From: Leisingera methylohalidivorans DSM 14336
GTDB lineage: Bacteria > Pseudomonadota > Alphaproteobacteria > Rhodobacterales > Rhodobacteraceae
Length of the DNA: 64,000 nucleotides
Direction: 5' to 3'
Assembly: GCF_000511355.1 (NCBI RefSeq)
Contig: NC_023135.1
Coordinates: 1,824,371-1,888,370 of the forward strand
Under the pieces are notes generated by a model, which saw only the letters and a list, made by a program, of their open reading frames with translations, was not told where the DNA came from and made no database searches. Position numbers and translations under genes: made by a program. Of the stretch, positions 48,603 through 54,050 are shown piece after piece; position 1 is the first letter of the stretch, and every line of letters starts with the position of its first letter.

Positions 48603-49628
48603 CTAGCTGAACATCGCGGGCAAATCCGTCGAGGAACGCACCCCGAGGTTCTTCCCGTCCTGCGTTAGAAAGCTGTCTGCCGCATCCCGCCCCGCCTGTT
48701 TCAGCCGCGCCAGGATCTGCGGCACAGGAAACAGCTTGGTGGTAACTGACAGCTGCGTCATCAGAACATCATCGGCAATCATGTGAACCCGCACTTTCTT
48801 CATCCGCCCGGGTTCCAGCGTTCCATCCGCCAGCAAACGCTGAACAAAGCTGATAGCCCGCAACTCCCGCAGCAATGAAGTGTTAAAGCTGATCTCATTC
48901 ACCCGGTTGCGGATCTGCTGCGGGGTCTTGGGAATCTCGTCGCGCTCCAGCGGGTTGATGTTCACTATCACCACATCTCCCGGCAGCCCGGCGCGGAACA
49001 AGGGAAACAGGGCCGGATTGCCAGTAAATCCGCCATCCCAATAGGCCTCCACCCGCCCGGTGTCCGGATCCTCGATCTCCACCGCCTGGAACATGTCCGG
49101 CAGGCAGGCCGAAGCGAGGATCGCATCTGTGCTGATCTCCTGCCCCTCGAAAATGCGGATCTTGCCGCTGCGCACGCAGGTGGCGCAAACGAACAGCTCT
49201 GGGCCTTCCTCGGCGCAGACTTTCGAAAAATTGAACGCCTCCACAACCTCCTGCAGCGGGTTCTTGTAGAACGGACCATAGTGATAGGGTGAGATCGCCT
49301 GGCTCATGGATGCCATCGGAGAAAACGGCATTACCGCCTCCCAGGCGCCTGCCCAGGCCACCGCATCAAACCGGGTCAGCCAATGGGCAAACCGCATGTC
49401 CCCCACCGCCCCCATCCGCCGCCACAGACTGTTCAGCGCCGCCTTGGCGCCCTCGCGCCCGCCCTGAACCATGCCGGACTTGAATGCTGCGCCATTCAGC
49501 GCGCCAGCCGAAGTTCCGGTAATCCCGGCCACCTCGATACCCTCATCTTCCAGCAGCCGGTCCAGCACACCCCAGGTGAACGCTCCATGCGCGCCGCCGC
49601 CCTGAAGGGCCAGATTAATGCGTTTCAC
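48603..49628 (-). CDS. Patatin-like phospholipase
   Basis: A 341-residue patatin-domain lipase. The oxyanion motif LALQGGGAHGAF, the nucleophile elbow GTSAG (serine about residue 40) and the catalytic aspartate in DGGFTGNP are all present. I chose the GTG at 49628 because AGG lies nine bases upstream and the domain starts directly after it. It lies about 100 bases downstream of bdhA in the same direction; the pair recurs in alphaproteobacteria, which suggests that it acts on polyhydroxybutyrate granules, but that is inference. A phospholipase role is the alternative. Confidence 0.9.
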   Translation of the reverse strand: MKRINLALQGGGAHGAFTWGVLDRLLEDEGIEVAGITGTSAGALNGAAFKSGMVQGGREGAKAALNSLWRRMGAVGDMRFAHWLTRFDAVAWAGAWEAVMPFSPMASMSQAISPYHYGPFYKNPLQEVVEAFNFSKVCAEEGPELFVCATCVRSGKIRIFEGQEISTDAILASACLPDMFQAVEIEDPDTGRVEAYWDGGFTGNPALFPLFRAGLPGDVVIVNINPLERDEIPKTPQQIRNRVNEISFNTSLLRELRAISFVQRLLADGTLEPGRMKKVRVHMIADDVLMTQLSVTTKLFPVPQILARLKQAGRDAADSFLTQDGKNLGVRSSTDLPAMFS

Positions 49629-49731
49629 CAAAATACACCTGCCCATTTCATCGTTGCGAAAATGCTTCGGGGCTGAATTTCCCCGGCCGCGGCATTGGGG
49701 GCCGGCCCCTCCCGCCGCTTCCAGGCAACGC

Positions 49732-50505
49732 CTACAGCGCCGTCCAGCCGCCATCGACACTCAGCGTCGTGCCGGTAATTTGCGCTGCGGCATCGGAACA
49801 CAAGAACACCGTGGTGCCGCCTAATTGCTCCACAGTAGCAAACTCGCGGCTCGGCTGGCGTTCGAGCATCACCTTCTTGATCACCTCGTCCCGGCCCATG
49901 TTGTATTTTTCCATGGTGTCCGGAATTTGCGCCTCCACCAGCGGCGTCAGCACATAGCCCGGGCAAATCGCATTGCAGGTGATTGGCTCCTCCGCTGTTT
50001 CCAGCGCCACTGTCTTGGTCATGCCTACGACCCCGTGCTTGGCTGCCACATAGGCGGCCTTAAACGGCGAGGCAGTCAGCCCGTGCGCTGAGGCGATATT
50101 TACGATCCGCCCCCAGCCCGCCGCGCGCATTCCGGGCAAGGCCGCCGCCATGGTATGAAAGTTCGAATTCATGTTGATCGCGATGATCGCGTCCCATTTG
50201 TCCTGCGGGAACGCATCGATCGGCGCCACATGCTGGATGCCGGCGTTGTTCACCAGGATATCGCAAACGCCGGCCTTCTCAATCAGCGCCCGGCAATCGG
50301 CACCATTGGACATGTCAGCCTGGATGTACTGGGCGTTGACGCTGAATTCACGGGCGATTTCTGCCGCCAGGGCGTGATCCTCTTCCCGGTCGGTGAATGA
50401 ATTCAGAACCACATCGGCCCCAGCCCGCGCCAGTTCGCGTGCAACCCCCAGGCCAATACCTGAATTCGATCCGGTGATAACGGCGGTCTTCCCTTGCAAG
50501 GACAT
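49732..50505 (-). CDS. bdhA: 3-hydroxybutyrate dehydrogenase
   Basis: A 257-residue short-chain dehydrogenase oxidising 3-hydroxybutyrate to acetoacetate with NAD. Motifs: KTAVITGSNSGIGLGVAREL (nucleotide site), DILVNNAGIQHVAPIDAFP, the catalytic serine in NIASAHGLTASPFKAAYVAAK with YxxxK at the end of that stretch, and CPGYVLTPLVEAQIPD. The HGLTASPFKAAYVAAKHG block is characteristic of BdhA. The start could be 50505 or 50511, both near GAGGG. It heads a leftward pair with the patatin gene and probably degrades polyhydroxybutyrate-derived monomer. Confidence 0.94.
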   Translation of the reverse strand: MSLQGKTAVITGSNSGIGLGVARELARAGADVVLNSFTDREEDHALAAEIAREFSVNAQYIQADMSNGADCRALIEKAGVCDILVNNAGIQHVAPIDAFPQDKWDAIIAINMNSNFHTMAAALPGMRAAGWGRIVNIASAHGLTASPFKAAYVAAKHGVVGMTKTVALETAEEPITCNAICPGYVLTPLVEAQIPDTMEKYNMGRDEVIKKVMLERQPSREFATVEQLGGTTVFLCSDAAAQITGTTLSVDGGWTAL

Positions 50506-50639: not shown

Positions 50640-50668
50640 AAAAAAAACGCCCGCACAAGGCGGGCGTT
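50640..50668 (-). terminator. Intrinsic terminator of the predicted sRNA
   Basis: AACGCCCGC (50646-50654) pairs with 50660-50668, five-base loop; on the minus strand it ends in eight T's (50640-50647). It points away from the flanking coding genes, so it ends no annotated protein gene. Confidence 0.88.
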
Positions 50669-50714
50669 AGTTATTGAGGCAGGTTTCATACAGGCAAGAA
50701 ACCTATCGAGCAGT
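50640..50714 (-). ncRNA. Predicted small regulatory RNA (about 75 nt)
   Basis: In the gap between bdhA and the solute-binding protein gene, the minus strand carries a well-formed promoter (50721-50749), then about 75 bases, then a strong intrinsic terminator. No protein frame on this strand has a matching start. The transcript would fold into a 5' hairpin (AGGTTTC at 50681-50687 pairing with 50698-50704, ten-base loop containing GCCTG), a single-stranded linker CTCAATAACTAA, and the terminator hairpin with eight U's. That is the layout of Hfq-binding small RNAs. The C-rich loop could pair with Shine-Dalgarno sequences. Identity with a known roseobacter sRNA was not testable. Confidence 0.6.
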
Positions 50715-50720
50715 GATCTC

Positions 50721-50749
50721 TTTATAAGCAATTTCCGGCTTTCGTCCAA
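50721..50749 (-). promoter_or_regulatory. Sigma-70-type promoter of the predicted sRNA
   Basis: Read on the minus strand: TTGGAC (50744-50749) and TATAAA (50721-50726) with exactly 17 bases between. Expected transcription start near 50714. Confidence 0.65.
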
Positions 50750-50823
50750 GCTAAAAGTTTGAAAAGACGAAAAGGCGCACGTAGCGTGCGGAAGCAAGAA
50801 AATAAGGGCAGAGCGGGATTGTT

Positions 50824-52647
50824 GTGAAACTGCGTATAGAAAATTTCGTCACGCTCAGTGCGGCACTGACCGGAATCACCTTGGCTTTTGCTGCGAACTT
50901 TGCTCAGGCAGAATCGGGTCATGGCATAGCTATGTATGGCGCTCCTGCCCTGCCACCGGATTTTGTGTCTTTACCCTATGCCAACCCGAATGCGCCCAAA
51001 GGCGGCAAGGTGGTTTTCGGCAACACCGGCGGCTTTGACACGCTGAACCCGTTCACCCTTAAAGGGACCGCGCCGTGGCAGCTGAGGTTCTGGGGATACG
51101 AGAGCCTGATGGGCCGCTCCTGGGATGAGCCGTTCACGCTTTACGGTCTTTTGGCCGAATCGATTGAGGTGCCCGAGGACCGCTCCTGGGTCGAATTCAC
51201 CCTGCGGGAAGAGGCGCGATTCTCCGATGGCAGCCCGGTGACCATCGAAGATGTGCTCTGGTCGTATGAAACTTTGGGCACCAAAGGCCACCCGCGCTAC
51301 CGCGGCTTCTGGACTAAGGTCGAGCGGATGGAACAGACCGGGCCGCGCAGCCTGCGGCTGACGTTCAACACGATAGACCGCGAGCTGGCACTGATCGCCG
51401 GAATGCGTCCGATCCTCAAGAAGGCACAGTGGCAGGGCAAGGACTTCGGTACAGATGAGCTGCCCGGCGCTCCGATCGGCACCGGCGCCTATGTTGTCAA
51501 GAATTTCGAACCCGGCCGCTTTGTAACCCTGACCCGGAATCCGGATTACTGGGGCAAGGATTTGCCACTGCACCGCGGCACCCGGAACTTTGACGAAATG
51601 CGCCTGGATTTCTTTGGCGACGCAACTGTGCTGTTCGAAGCCTTCAAGGCAGGCGAGCTGAGTGCGGTGCGTGAATTCAACGCCGACAAATGGGACAGCG
51701 TCTACAACTTTCCTGCCGTAACCCGCGGCGATGTAGTCAAAAGCGAAATACCGCATCAGCGTCCTTCGGGCATGACCGGGTTGGTGATGAACAGCCGCCG
51801 TGCCCCGCTGAACGACTGGCGCGTGCGCGAAGCGCTGCTACTGGCGTTCAATTTCGAATATATAAACGGCACGGTGACAGGCGGCGTGCAACCGCGGATC
51901 ACCTCATATTTCTCGGGGTCCGAGCTTGGCATGCAGCCCGGCCCAGCTGCCGGCAAGGTTCAAAAGCTGTTGGAACCCTTTGCAGACACGCTGCTGCCCG
52001 GCACGCTGGACGGCTACGAACTGCCACAGGGCGACGGCACCAAGCGAAACCGCAAAAACCTGCGCAAAGCAATGAAACTGCTGGCCGACGCGGGTTGGAG
52101 CGTCACCGATGGCGTGCTGCGCAATACCGATGGTGCGGCACTGAACTTCACAGTTCTGATCCGCCAGGGCGACGGCGAGTTGAAAACCATCACTGAAATC
52201 TTTGCCCGCGCACTTGAACGTCTGGGCATCACGCTGACGGCGGAAACCGTCGACAACGCACAATATGTCGAACGCCAGACCGCCTATGATTTCGACCTCA
52301 CCCGCTACCGCCGGGAGTTGTCGCTGAGCCCCGGAAACGAGCAGCGCTATTACTGGGGCAGCGACGGTGTCAGCCAGCCCGGCAGCCGTAATCTGATGGG
52401 CATGGAAAGCCCGGCGGCTGAAGCAATGATTGATGCCATGCTAACCGCGACGGAGCCCGAAGACTTCACAGCCGCGGTGCGGGCGCTGGACCGGGTTTTG
52501 ACCGCGGGCCGCTATGTCATTCCATTCTGGAGGTTCGATGCGGGACGGATCGCCCATGTCAAGGAAATGCGGTTCCCGGAGTATCTGCCGATTTACGGCG
52601 ACCGGACCGAGTTCATGCCGGATGTCTGGTGGTATCAAAAAGACTGA
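50824..52647 (+). CDS. Peptide-type ABC transporter substrate-binding protein
   Basis: A 607-residue family-5 extracellular solute-binding protein. A signal peptide (LSAALTGITLAFAANFAQAE) is followed by HGIAMYGAPALPPDFVSLPY and VVFGNTGGFDTLNPFTLKG, the start of YejA-type peptide-binding proteins, then TLYGLLAESIEVPEDRSWVE, FTLREEARFSDGSPVTIEDV and FWRFDAG near the end. The start is GTG at 50824, with no strong Shine-Dalgarno. No permease or ATPase genes follow in this window (an ars operon comes next), so the transporter is elsewhere or it works alone. Ligand probably a peptide. Confidence 0.92.
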   Translation: MKLRIENFVTLSAALTGITLAFAANFAQAESGHGIAMYGAPALPPDFVSLPYANPNAPKGGKVVFGNTGGFDTLNPFTLKGTAPWQLRFWGYESLMGRSWDEPFTLYGLLAESIEVPEDRSWVEFTLREEARFSDGSPVTIEDVLWSYETLGTKGHPRYRGFWTKVERMEQTGPRSLRLTFNTIDRELALIAGMRPILKKAQWQGKDFGTDELPGAPIGTGAYVVKNFEPGRFVTLTRNPDYWGKDLPLHRGTRNFDEMRLDFFGDATVLFEAFKAGELSAVREFNADKWDSVYNFPAVTRGDVVKSEIPHQRPSGMTGLVMNSRRAPLNDWRVREALLLAFNFEYINGTVTGGVQPRITSYFSGSELGMQPGPAAGKVQKLLEPFADTLLPGTLDGYELPQGDGTKRNRKNLRKAMKLLADAGWSVTDGVLRNTDGAALNFTVLIRQGDGELKTITEIFARALERLGITLTAETVDNAQYVERQTAYDFDLTRYRRELSLSPGNEQRYYWGSDGVSQPGSRNLMGMESPAAEAMIDAMLTATEPEDFTAAVRALDRVLTAGRYVIPFWRFDAGRIAHVKEMRFPEYLPIYGDRTEFMPDVWWYQKD

Positions 52648-52697: not shown

Positions 52698-52725
52698 AAT
52701 TCCATATTTCATGAAATATGGAATT
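52698..52725. promoter_or_regulatory. Perfect 28-bp palindrome: ArsR operator over the start codon
   Basis: All 14 pairs match (AATTCCATATTTCA on each side of the centre between 52711 and 52712). TTGACT at 52682-52687 and a TATTTC box at 52705-52710 (17-base spacer) put transcription start at about 52717-52718, the A of the arsR ATG. The operator thus covers the -10 box and the first codons, ideal for repression by the ArsR encoded downstream. Confidence 0.85.
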
Positions 52726-53551
52726 TAATATCGCAGATAAACTCAGTGCACTGGCGCATCCGAACCGTCTGGCCCTGTTCCGCCTGCTGATGCGGCGCTA
52801 TCCGGATGCTGTTCCCGCTGGCGAGATTGCCTCAGCACTGAATTTCAAGCCCAACACGGCCTCTGTTTATCTGTCAGTTTTGAACCAGGCCGGACTGATC
52901 AACCAGCACCGGAGCGGCACCTCCCTGATGTACACCGCCGACCTGACTGGTTTGCGCGGCATGTTTGATGCCCTGCTGTCCGGGTGCTGCCAGAACCGAC
53001 CCGGTATCTGCAGCCCTGTCACGAGTGATGAACCGATCATGCCGACGGTTGAGCGCCCGTTGAACATTCTGTTCCTCTGCACTGGCAATTCCGCCCGGTC
53101 GCTGCTTGCCGAATCTATCCTGAACCAATCCGGCGAGGGTAAATTCCGCGCCTATTCAGCAGGCACCCGCCCTTCACCCGGACCGCGCCCGGAGGTGACC
53201 GCCCTGCTGCAGGCCAAAGGCCATGACACCAGCACGCTTTATCCCAAGGATCTGGGCGCGTTCTCAGCCCCGGAGGCACCAAAGATGGATTTCATCTTCA
53301 CCGTCTGCGACCACGCCGCCAACGAGGAATGTCCGGCCTGGCCAGGACAGCCGATGAGTGCCCATTGGGGGCTCGAGGATCCGGTCAAGGCGACAGGCAC
53401 AGATGCCGAACGGCGGCTGGCCTTCCAGCAGGCCTACGGGCTGCTGCGCACCCGGATCAAAGCTTTTGTGGCGCTGCCCTTTGAAACTCTCGACCGCCTG
53501 TCGCTTCAACATCAGCTTGACGATATCGGCCGCGTGAATTCATCCGACTAA
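52718..53551 (+). CDS. ArsR repressor fused to arsenate reductase
   Basis: A 277-residue fusion. Residues 1-100 are an ArsR-type winged helix (MEFNIADKLSALAHPNRLAL, ASALNFKPNTASVYLSVLNQ) with a candidate arsenic-sensing cysteine set SGCCQNRPGICSP near residues 88-100. Residues 114-277 are a low-molecular-weight phosphatase-type ArsC: the loop FLCTGNSARS (C-x4-N-x-A-R-S form), MDFIFTVCDHAANEECPAWP. The start lies inside the palindromic operator with no room for a Shine-Dalgarno, so the mRNA is probably leaderless. It heads arsR/C-arsC-aqpS. A dual sensor and enzyme, or a repressor that became fused. Confidence 0.88.
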   Translation: MEFNIADKLSALAHPNRLALFRLLMRRYPDAVPAGEIASALNFKPNTASVYLSVLNQAGLINQHRSGTSLMYTADLTGLRGMFDALLSGCCQNRPGICSPVTSDEPIMPTVERPLNILFLCTGNSARSLLAESILNQSGEGKFRAYSAGTRPSPGPRPEVTALLQAKGHDTSTLYPKDLGAFSAPEAPKMDFIFTVCDHAANEECPAWPGQPMSAHWGLEDPVKATGTDAERRLAFQQAYGLLRTRIKAFVALPFETLDRLSLQHQLDDIGRVNSSD

Positions 53552-53573: not shown

Positions 53574-54050
53574 ATGAACATTCTCGTCCTTTGCACGGGC
53601 AACTCTGCCCGCTCCATCCTGCTGGAATCGATTTTCAACAGCCTCGGCGCGGGCCGCACCCGTGCGTTTTCCGCTGGCTCCAAACCCACCGGCGAGGTGC
53701 ATCCGCAATCCCTGGCGCTGCTGGAAGAGCTTGGCCAAGATGCCGCCGGCGCCCGCTCCAAGAGCTGGGACGAGTTTGCCGCTGAAGGCGCGCCGGAAAT
53801 GGACATGGTGATCACCGTCTGCGCTTCGGCTGCTGGTGAAACCTGCCCGATTTGGCCCGGCACGCCGGTTCGCGCGCACTGGGGCGTCGCAGATCCGGCT
53901 GCCGCAGACCAGCCGGAATGGGACACAGCCTTCCGCGCCGCTTACATCACACTGGAACAGCGTGCCAAAGCGCTGCTGGATCTGCCATTTGAGACCATGA
54001 ACGCAACCGAACTGACGCAGCAGCTCAAACGGATTGGAGAGATCGTATGA
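53574..54050 (+). CDS. arsC: Arsenate reductase, LMW-phosphatase type
   Basis: A 158-residue ArsC of the low-molecular-weight tyrosine-phosphatase fold that reduces As(V) to As(III). LVLCTGNSARSILLESIFNS holds the catalytic P-loop cysteine; MDMVITVCASAAGETCPIWP holds the second and third cysteines used in the disulfide relay; the WGVADPAA segment is typical. It is a second ArsC beside the one fused to ArsR, so the operon carries two. 22 bases follow the fusion stop, and its own stop overlaps the aqpS start (ATGA). Confidence 0.92.
   Translation: MNILVLCTGNSARSILLESIFNSLGAGRTRAFSAGSKPTGEVHPQSLALLEELGQDAAGARSKSWDEFAAEGAPEMDMVITVCASAAGETCPIWPGTPVRAHWGVADPAAADQPEWDTAFRAAYITLEQRAKALLDLPFETMNATELTQQLKRIGEIV

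Follow-up and report, generated by a model that had tools for sequence, protein, structure and literature searches.

A small RNA gene conserved across the Rhodobacteraceae, probably an ortholog of StsR, with two predicted pairing sites in the mraZ leader

Anatomy and surroundings of the locus

The window, a stretch of 64,000 nucleotides of the Leisingera methylohalidivorans DSM 14336 genome that was analyzed as a whole, contains a gap between bdhA and a divergently oriented solute-binding protein gene. Judged from its sequence, the minus strand of this gap (50640-50749) carries a real small RNA (sRNA) gene with predicted transcript ends. The following features were assigned.

50750..50760, minus strand: conserved AAACTTTTAGC block directly upstream of the -35 box, from comparison of upstream sequences across the family
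50744..50749, minus strand: -35 box TTGGAC, TTG kept at 91 to 100% per position in 181 distinct upstream sequences
50721..50726, minus strand: -10 box TATAAA, TATA kept at 96 to 99% per position
50640..50714, minus strand: predicted sRNA of about 71 to 75 nt, start inferred 7 nt past the -10 box
50675..50714, minus strand: 40-nt core ACTGCTCGATAGG...CTGCCTCA, invariant in 68 of 68 aligned sequences
50707..50713, minus strand: 5' segment CUGCUCG of the sRNA, complementary to CGAGCAG, site B in the mraZ leader
50680..50705, minus strand: 5' hairpin of 7 pairs with a T-G pair outside and a 10-nt loop, TTGCCTGTAT; from folding, invariant in the alignment
50679..50696, minus strand: predicted pairing segment UGCCUGUAUGAAACCUGC from the loop and 3' arm, with complementarity to mraZ leader site A
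50640..50668, minus strand: intrinsic terminator with a 9-pair stem (50668-50646) that shows covariation
49732..50505, minus strand: bdhA, 3-hydroxybutyrate dehydrogenase, downstream of the sRNA (TIGR01963, 356.5 bits, cut-off 307.05)
48603-49637, minus strand: patatin-like phospholipase gene beyond bdhA (PF01734, 62.9 bits)
50824..52647, plus strand: divergent gene for a family-5 extracellular solute-binding protein (PF00496)

The first-pass annotation of this DNA had described TTGGAC, a 17-base spacer, TATAAA, a 7-bp hairpin, a linker, and a terminator with eight T residues, and both its coordinates and its anatomy were found to be correct. The hairpin arms AGGTTTC and GAAACCT pair 50704-50698 with 50687-50681, a short linker lies between the hairpin and the terminator stem, and the eight T residues occupy 50647-50640, the first two inside the stem. 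It was also right that no protein gene fits here, bdhA and the solute-binding protein gene being the flanks. Folding of the predicted sRNA yielded an energy of -25 kcal/mol (z score of -4.46), and none of 200 shuffled sequences was equally low. Terminator-like sites numbered 4 in the region versus 4.4 expected, and one such site alone is not significant.

The promoter boxes are present, as had been claimed, and are conserved in part. However, their description as consensus quality was overstated by the standard of Escherichia coli sigma-70, since TTGGAC matches TTGACA at three of six positions; a simple promoter scan omitted the sRNA promoter. In the 181 distinct upstream sequences, the TTG letters were kept at 100, 91, and 97%, respectively, TATA was retained as given above, and an AAAcTTTtagc block preceded the -35 box (3 of 118 named loci had less than 75 nt upstream and were left out of this comparison). 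The AAACTTTTAGC block could serve as an UP element, as a regulator site, or within the divergent promoter. TTG and TAT are, in the parts of the literature consulted, the published marks of RpoHI/RpoHII promoters. Both are kept at the sRNA promoter, and a sigma-70 promoter has the same letters.

The position next to bdhA and an uptake gene, to which the annotation had drawn attention, is a truly conserved arrangement. Among the named loci listed and long enough to be scored, the divergent solute-binding gene was present at 103 of 109, bdhA lay within 1.5 kb of the sRNA at 75 of 91, and both neighbors occurred together at 68 of 83. In the remaining 15 of these 83 loci bdhA was not within 1.5 kb, and 5 of the 15 were also without an adjacent solute-binding gene. 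Patatin-like genes occur near bdhA in some other genera as well. On the other side of the sRNA, inspection by eye indicated an ArsR-type regulator seemingly fused to a low-molecular-weight phosphatase/arsenate reductase-like domain (52718-53551, plus strand), followed by a second domain of the latter type (53574-54050, plus strand).

Sequence conservation and taxonomic range

The sRNA was found by DNA search in 289 of 295 family genomes, nearly all of different genera, and in 258 of the 260 good assemblies; the six genomes without a match were 71 to 92% complete. A DNA search of 41 related genomes gave matches with E values of 10 or better in 39, reaching 3.6e-16 or better in the 25 genomes of the family itself, whereas the best value among the 16 others was 0.003. 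A covariance model (R1) was built from 68 aligned sequences and applied with the stricter filters of Infernal to the order and to a draw of 385 genomes from the class. It matched all 149 order genomes, all listed under the same family. In the class draw, the five genomes listed as members of the family scored 102.7 to 107.9 bits; weak matches, at most 31.4 bits, were obtained in 23 of the other 380 genomes, with kinship not listed for 337 genomes without a match. At the loci outside the family, 18 to 23 of the 40 core letters differed, the same as for 25 random sequences compared on both strands (25 of the 28 listed matches had readable loci). Because the core differs as much as random sequence does, these weak matches are, as far as sequence can tell, look-alikes of the terminator.

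A genus resembling Paracoccus carried the sRNA in 124 of 125 genomes, and among the matches listed there was one strong copy per genome. The named loci listed, at least 118, belong to the Rhodobacteraceae and their kin and include Leisingera aquaemixtae. A search of a viral collection for the exact 22-nt hairpin returned zero matches. On this sequence evidence the sRNA is present family-wide with a sharp taxonomic edge. A covariance search and an alignment in related roseobacters had been suggested as checks of the sRNA, and both hairpins, together with the TTG and TATA letters of the promoter boxes, proved to be kept in relatives.

The two parts of the sRNA differ in how they vary. The ACTGCTCGATAGGTTTCTTGCCTGTATGAAACCTGCCTCA letters were constant across all 68 rows of the alignment, which were taken from 90 selected sequences, themselves from 140 distinct ones (1 of 179 core loci was without a terminator and was dropped). 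The named loci had been selected by an exact 29-nt pattern, from which most of the 68 aligned sequences came, so that identity inside this stretch is partly by construction. The stretch was also exact in 72 of 72 loci retrieved by looser DNA and model searches, these being the better-scoring loci, in which a few genomes appear twice; ACTG and TGCCTCA, which flank the pattern and lie beyond it, were likewise invariant. The 5' hairpin is invariant in the alignment and thus offers no covariation. In the terminator stem, 8 of 9 pairs were changed on both sides and 97.5% of cells were paired across the 68 sequences. The terminator varies freely yet keeps its pairs, as expected for an RNA that is transcribed and ends at an intrinsic terminator. 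The prediction of a small RNA that has a promoter and a terminator of its own is strongly supported by this covariation and by conservation far above chance, and the constraint on the core, as read from the alignment, exceeds what structure alone would require.

A 19-nt sequence identical in the sense orientation to part of the sRNA, GAAACCTGCCTCAATAACT, was noticed at the 3' end of a frame that is GNAT-like by eye (locus L031, G000:C1:618562-618580). Its identity is 94 to 100% in many genomes of the genus. It is probably, or at least possibly, a chance match kept by coding; possibly it acts as a sponge on the opposite strand.

Predicted pairing with the mraZ leader

The sRNA matches the leader of mraZ, the first gene of the dcw cell division cluster, in antisense orientation to the mraZ message (MraZ was identified by NF001476, 229 bits, cut-off 162). 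We compared the mraZ loci of 30 genera, each represented by one genome hand-picked among well-assembled genomes of the order. Site A, in its typical form (G)CAGGTTTCATACAGGC(A) and with TTC(A/G)TACAGGC as its core, was present in 30 of 30 leaders and is complementary to the loop and 3' arm of the sRNA. Its longest unbroken complement measured 12 to 18 nt in 29 leaders; in the other it was 9 nt, owing to an interrupting G-U pair. Several genera deviate from the longest form of the site. Site B, CGAGCAG, complements the 5' end of the sRNA over 7 nt in 29 of 30 genera and over 6 nt in the remaining one. At least 6 nt of site B occurred in 6 of 390 control windows. Site B starts 41 to 51 nt past the start of the site A core throughout the 30 leaders, a nearly fixed spacing, and both sites could be paired simultaneously because their order and polarity allow it.

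Duplex energies were calculated for the Leisingera window sRNA against 130-nt segments of all 30 leaders and ranged from -38.5 to -48.4 kcal/mol, with a mean z score of -5.4. For 29 of 30 leaders, none of 200 shuffled versions was as low; for Rhodobacter sphaeroides, 1 of 200 was. Few columns were invariant when the 30 leaders were aligned, and the cores of sites A and B were among them. Two further leader blocks, GATCCGGCGCGC and ACATCCCCCCAGG, showed at least 90% conservation in most columns and have no match to the sRNA, and the leader must therefore be under another constraint. Where the sites change, the sRNA does not change with them, and the pairing is therefore characterized by conservation but not by covariation.

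A C-rich GCCTG stretch in the loop had been proposed to pair with Shine-Dalgarno sequences. Pairing of the loop is indeed predicted, but with CAGGC of the mraZ leader and not with a ribosome-binding site; in R. sphaeroides, the mraZ start lies about 200 nt downstream of this partner. At two loci, L252 and L263, direct repeats of the TGGG type were observed ahead of the mraZ leader. They resemble MraZ boxes, and the leader promoter may therefore be MraZ controlled here too.

Relation to known small RNAs and alternative explanations

No Rfam 15 family reached its gathering score in the window or in six loci, four of which were homologs. RyhB (26.3 of the required 55 bits) and Hrs13 (25.8 of 52) were the best subthreshold scores, and membership of any Rfam 15 family was rejected, all scores being below the gathering cut-off. 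SorY (RF02651), a stress sRNA of R. sphaeroides, also has a promoter of its own and a terminator, but the window RNA scores 11.9 bits against the SorY cut-off of 111. The MmgR (alpha-r8) sRNA of rhizobia is a short alphaproteobacterial sRNA with a link to storage polymers in the literature. R1 gave at most 31.4 bits outside the five listed family genomes of the class draw. The Paracoccus denitrificans sRNAs "intergenic 60" and "intergenic 134" have reported homologs outside the family, according to the part of the source consulted, unlike the family-bound window sRNA (PMC5107571). None of the 124 matches in the Paracoccus-like genus lay at their coordinates, although the assembly underlying these may differ. 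Ruegeria pomeroyi trans-acting sRNAs in the consulted part of Table 2 of another study are 101 nt or longer (PMC4809877).

A closer counterpart exists in R. sphaeroides. As far as the consulted parts of the publications describe it, the mraZ leader there is 268 nt long, and partial termination within it yields the sRNA UpsM of 206 nt; a long terminator-bearing mraZ leader is reported in those parts only from the Rhodobacteraceae (PMC5089854). Under stress, RNase E cleaves UpsM in a manner dependent on Hfq and on the RpoHI/RpoHII regulon; a partner RNA, then unknown, made under RpoHI/RpoHII was inferred to be responsible (PMC5089854). StsR is an Hfq-bound sRNA of 72 nt that depends on RpoHI/RpoHII, is induced in stationary phase, and pairs with UpsM and the dcw leader, which leads to the RNase E cut (PMC8307010, PMC11354728). 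In the same consulted portions, this cleavage reduces UpsM and dcw mRNA and makes R. sphaeroides grow more slowly, the rpoE mRNA just past its start codon is given as a further StsR target, and RSs0827 and RSs0682 appear as the former names of StsR and UpsM, respectively.

The homolog of the window sRNA in R. sphaeroides 2.4.1 is located on chromosome 1 at 1,443,996-1,444,073 (minus strand), adjoining homologs of the same two genes, bdhA and the solute-binding protein gene. Coordinates in this genome agree with published ones, SorY being found at 1,632,645 (Rfam, 115 bits, cut-off 111) versus a published start of 1,632,642. In the leader, site A occupies 694,689-694,706 and site B 694,742-694,748; between them falls 694,720, the 5' end published for the RNase E cut. 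We regard this as the most telling result, the cut having been mapped independently. With its one mismatch, this leader lacks the exact 14-mer of site A. A constrained fold of UpsM with both sites blocked left the pairing at the cut site unchanged, and the published conformational change is therefore not reproduced by this simple model.

In further agreement with StsR, the window sRNA is a stand-alone gene of about 71 to 75 nt (predicted ends), against 72 nt for StsR, with its own promoter, bearing TTG and TAT letters that a sigma-70 promoter shares, and an intrinsic terminator. Pairing with the UpsM/dcw leader was predicted in silico for 30 of 30 leaders. The predicted sRNA has a U-rich tail and may bind Hfq. 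The leader of UpsM, the predicted partner, bears sites A and B; UpsM itself stands on the target side, with the window sRNA gene elsewhere on the chromosome. The consulted passages describe StsR in R. sphaeroides only and contain no report of it outside this species or of A and B sites across the family; the original paper may treat conservation. The sRNA had initially been termed unreported, which remains apt in that no Rfam family reaches its gathering score and is inapt in that it is probably the ortholog of the published StsR.

The number RSs0827 does not suit this identity. With RSs0682 at about 0.695 Mb and RSs1624 at 1.7245 Mb as anchors, RSs0827 is expected near 0.85 Mb if the numbers follow the chromosome, and not at 1.444 Mb, which corresponds to about RSs1370. 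RSs1543 is the number of SorY, and RSs1368 that of an R. sphaeroides sRNA that would lie near the 1.444-Mb position. The locus might then encode a separate sRNA, distinct from StsR, whose pairing partners likewise include the dcw leader and UpsM. We consider this unlikely. Two different sRNAs acting on one target region would be surprising, and the length, the own promoter, and the position of the cut site all suit StsR. A scan of 0.79 to 0.93 Mb (stem of at least 5 pairs, at least 5 T residues) gave terminator-like sites at two positions, 905.5 and 914.7 kb; besides these two, no convincing StsR-like gene was found near the place predicted from the number by scanning for a terminator and for pairing with UpsM. 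As for the other published target, rpoE was not found within the R. sphaeroides stretches read, where the ChrR zinc motif was also looked for, and family searches of that genome for its neighbor ChrR (TIGR02451) gave no match.

The other alternatives concern the target. A role of the sRNA in carbon or nutrient control had been suggested from its neighbors, and local regulation of storage polymer or peptide use through bdhA or the solute-binding gene would agree with the retention of both neighbors (103 of 109 and 75 of 91 listed loci). Pairing with the start of the solute-binding gene was mildly low, at -34.2 kcal/mol (3.9% of 1,000 random 100-nt window segments were as low), but that with the bdhA start region was ordinary (-29.7 kcal/mol, 18.4%). 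None of the 1,000 random segments paired below -40.1 kcal/mol. Pairing with the mraZ leaders is far stronger and is kept in 30 of 30 genera, and the sRNA persists at the 15 of 83 listed loci without bdhA nearby, 5 of them also without the adjacent solute-binding gene. The proposed nutritional role thus found no support, and local control is extremely improbable. It is also conceivable that the complementarity to mraZ is a by-product, the leader blocks being kept for other reasons while the sRNA acts on other targets. The conservation of GATCCGGCGCGC and ACATCCCCCCAGG without an sRNA match and the absence of covariation between sRNA and sites fit such an origin, and the target comparison was limited to mraZ leaders and local genes. 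Against it, two sites in the right order and spacing occur in 30 of 30 genera, whereas site B by itself turned up in 6 of 390 control windows, and the sites flank the mapped RNase E cut. We judge a by-product to be very improbable.

Taken together, these comparisons make it very probable that the locus is the StsR ortholog, a trans-acting sRNA predicted to pair in two parts with the dcw leader and UpsM, on either side of the RNase E site. That this organism and the family as a whole possess the same circuit as R. sphaeroides is, by analogy, the most likely reading. The sRNA would end at its intrinsic terminator and, as published for R. sphaeroides, would be controlled by RpoHI/RpoHII under stress and in stationary phase. 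Its loop and 3' arm (UGCCUGUAUGAAACCUG) would bind leader site A and its 5' end, CUGCUCG, site B, leaving between them the stretch in which RNase E cuts in R. sphaeroides. The cut would lower UpsM and dcw mRNA and slow growth, effects that, like StsR-UpsM binding and the RNase E cleavage, are published for R. sphaeroides only.

We lean, with some reserve, toward a broader proposal in which, across essentially the whole of the Rhodobacteraceae, cell division is coupled to stress transcription by an sRNA that clamps the dcw leader at two sites and whose 40-nt core hardly changes. The sRNA would hold the leader on either side of the cut and present the intervening segment to RNase E. Such a clamp would explain the invariant core, because one hairpin arm serves both the fold of the sRNA and the leader. 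If this is right, the sRNA supplies a missing Rfam family, and the two pairing sites are now named to the base. The circuit would be directly testable in genetically easy strains of Phaeobacter, Ruegeria, Dinoroseobacter, and Paracoccus, and an RNA circuit linking stress to division, described in one phototroph, would be nearly universal in a large and widespread family.
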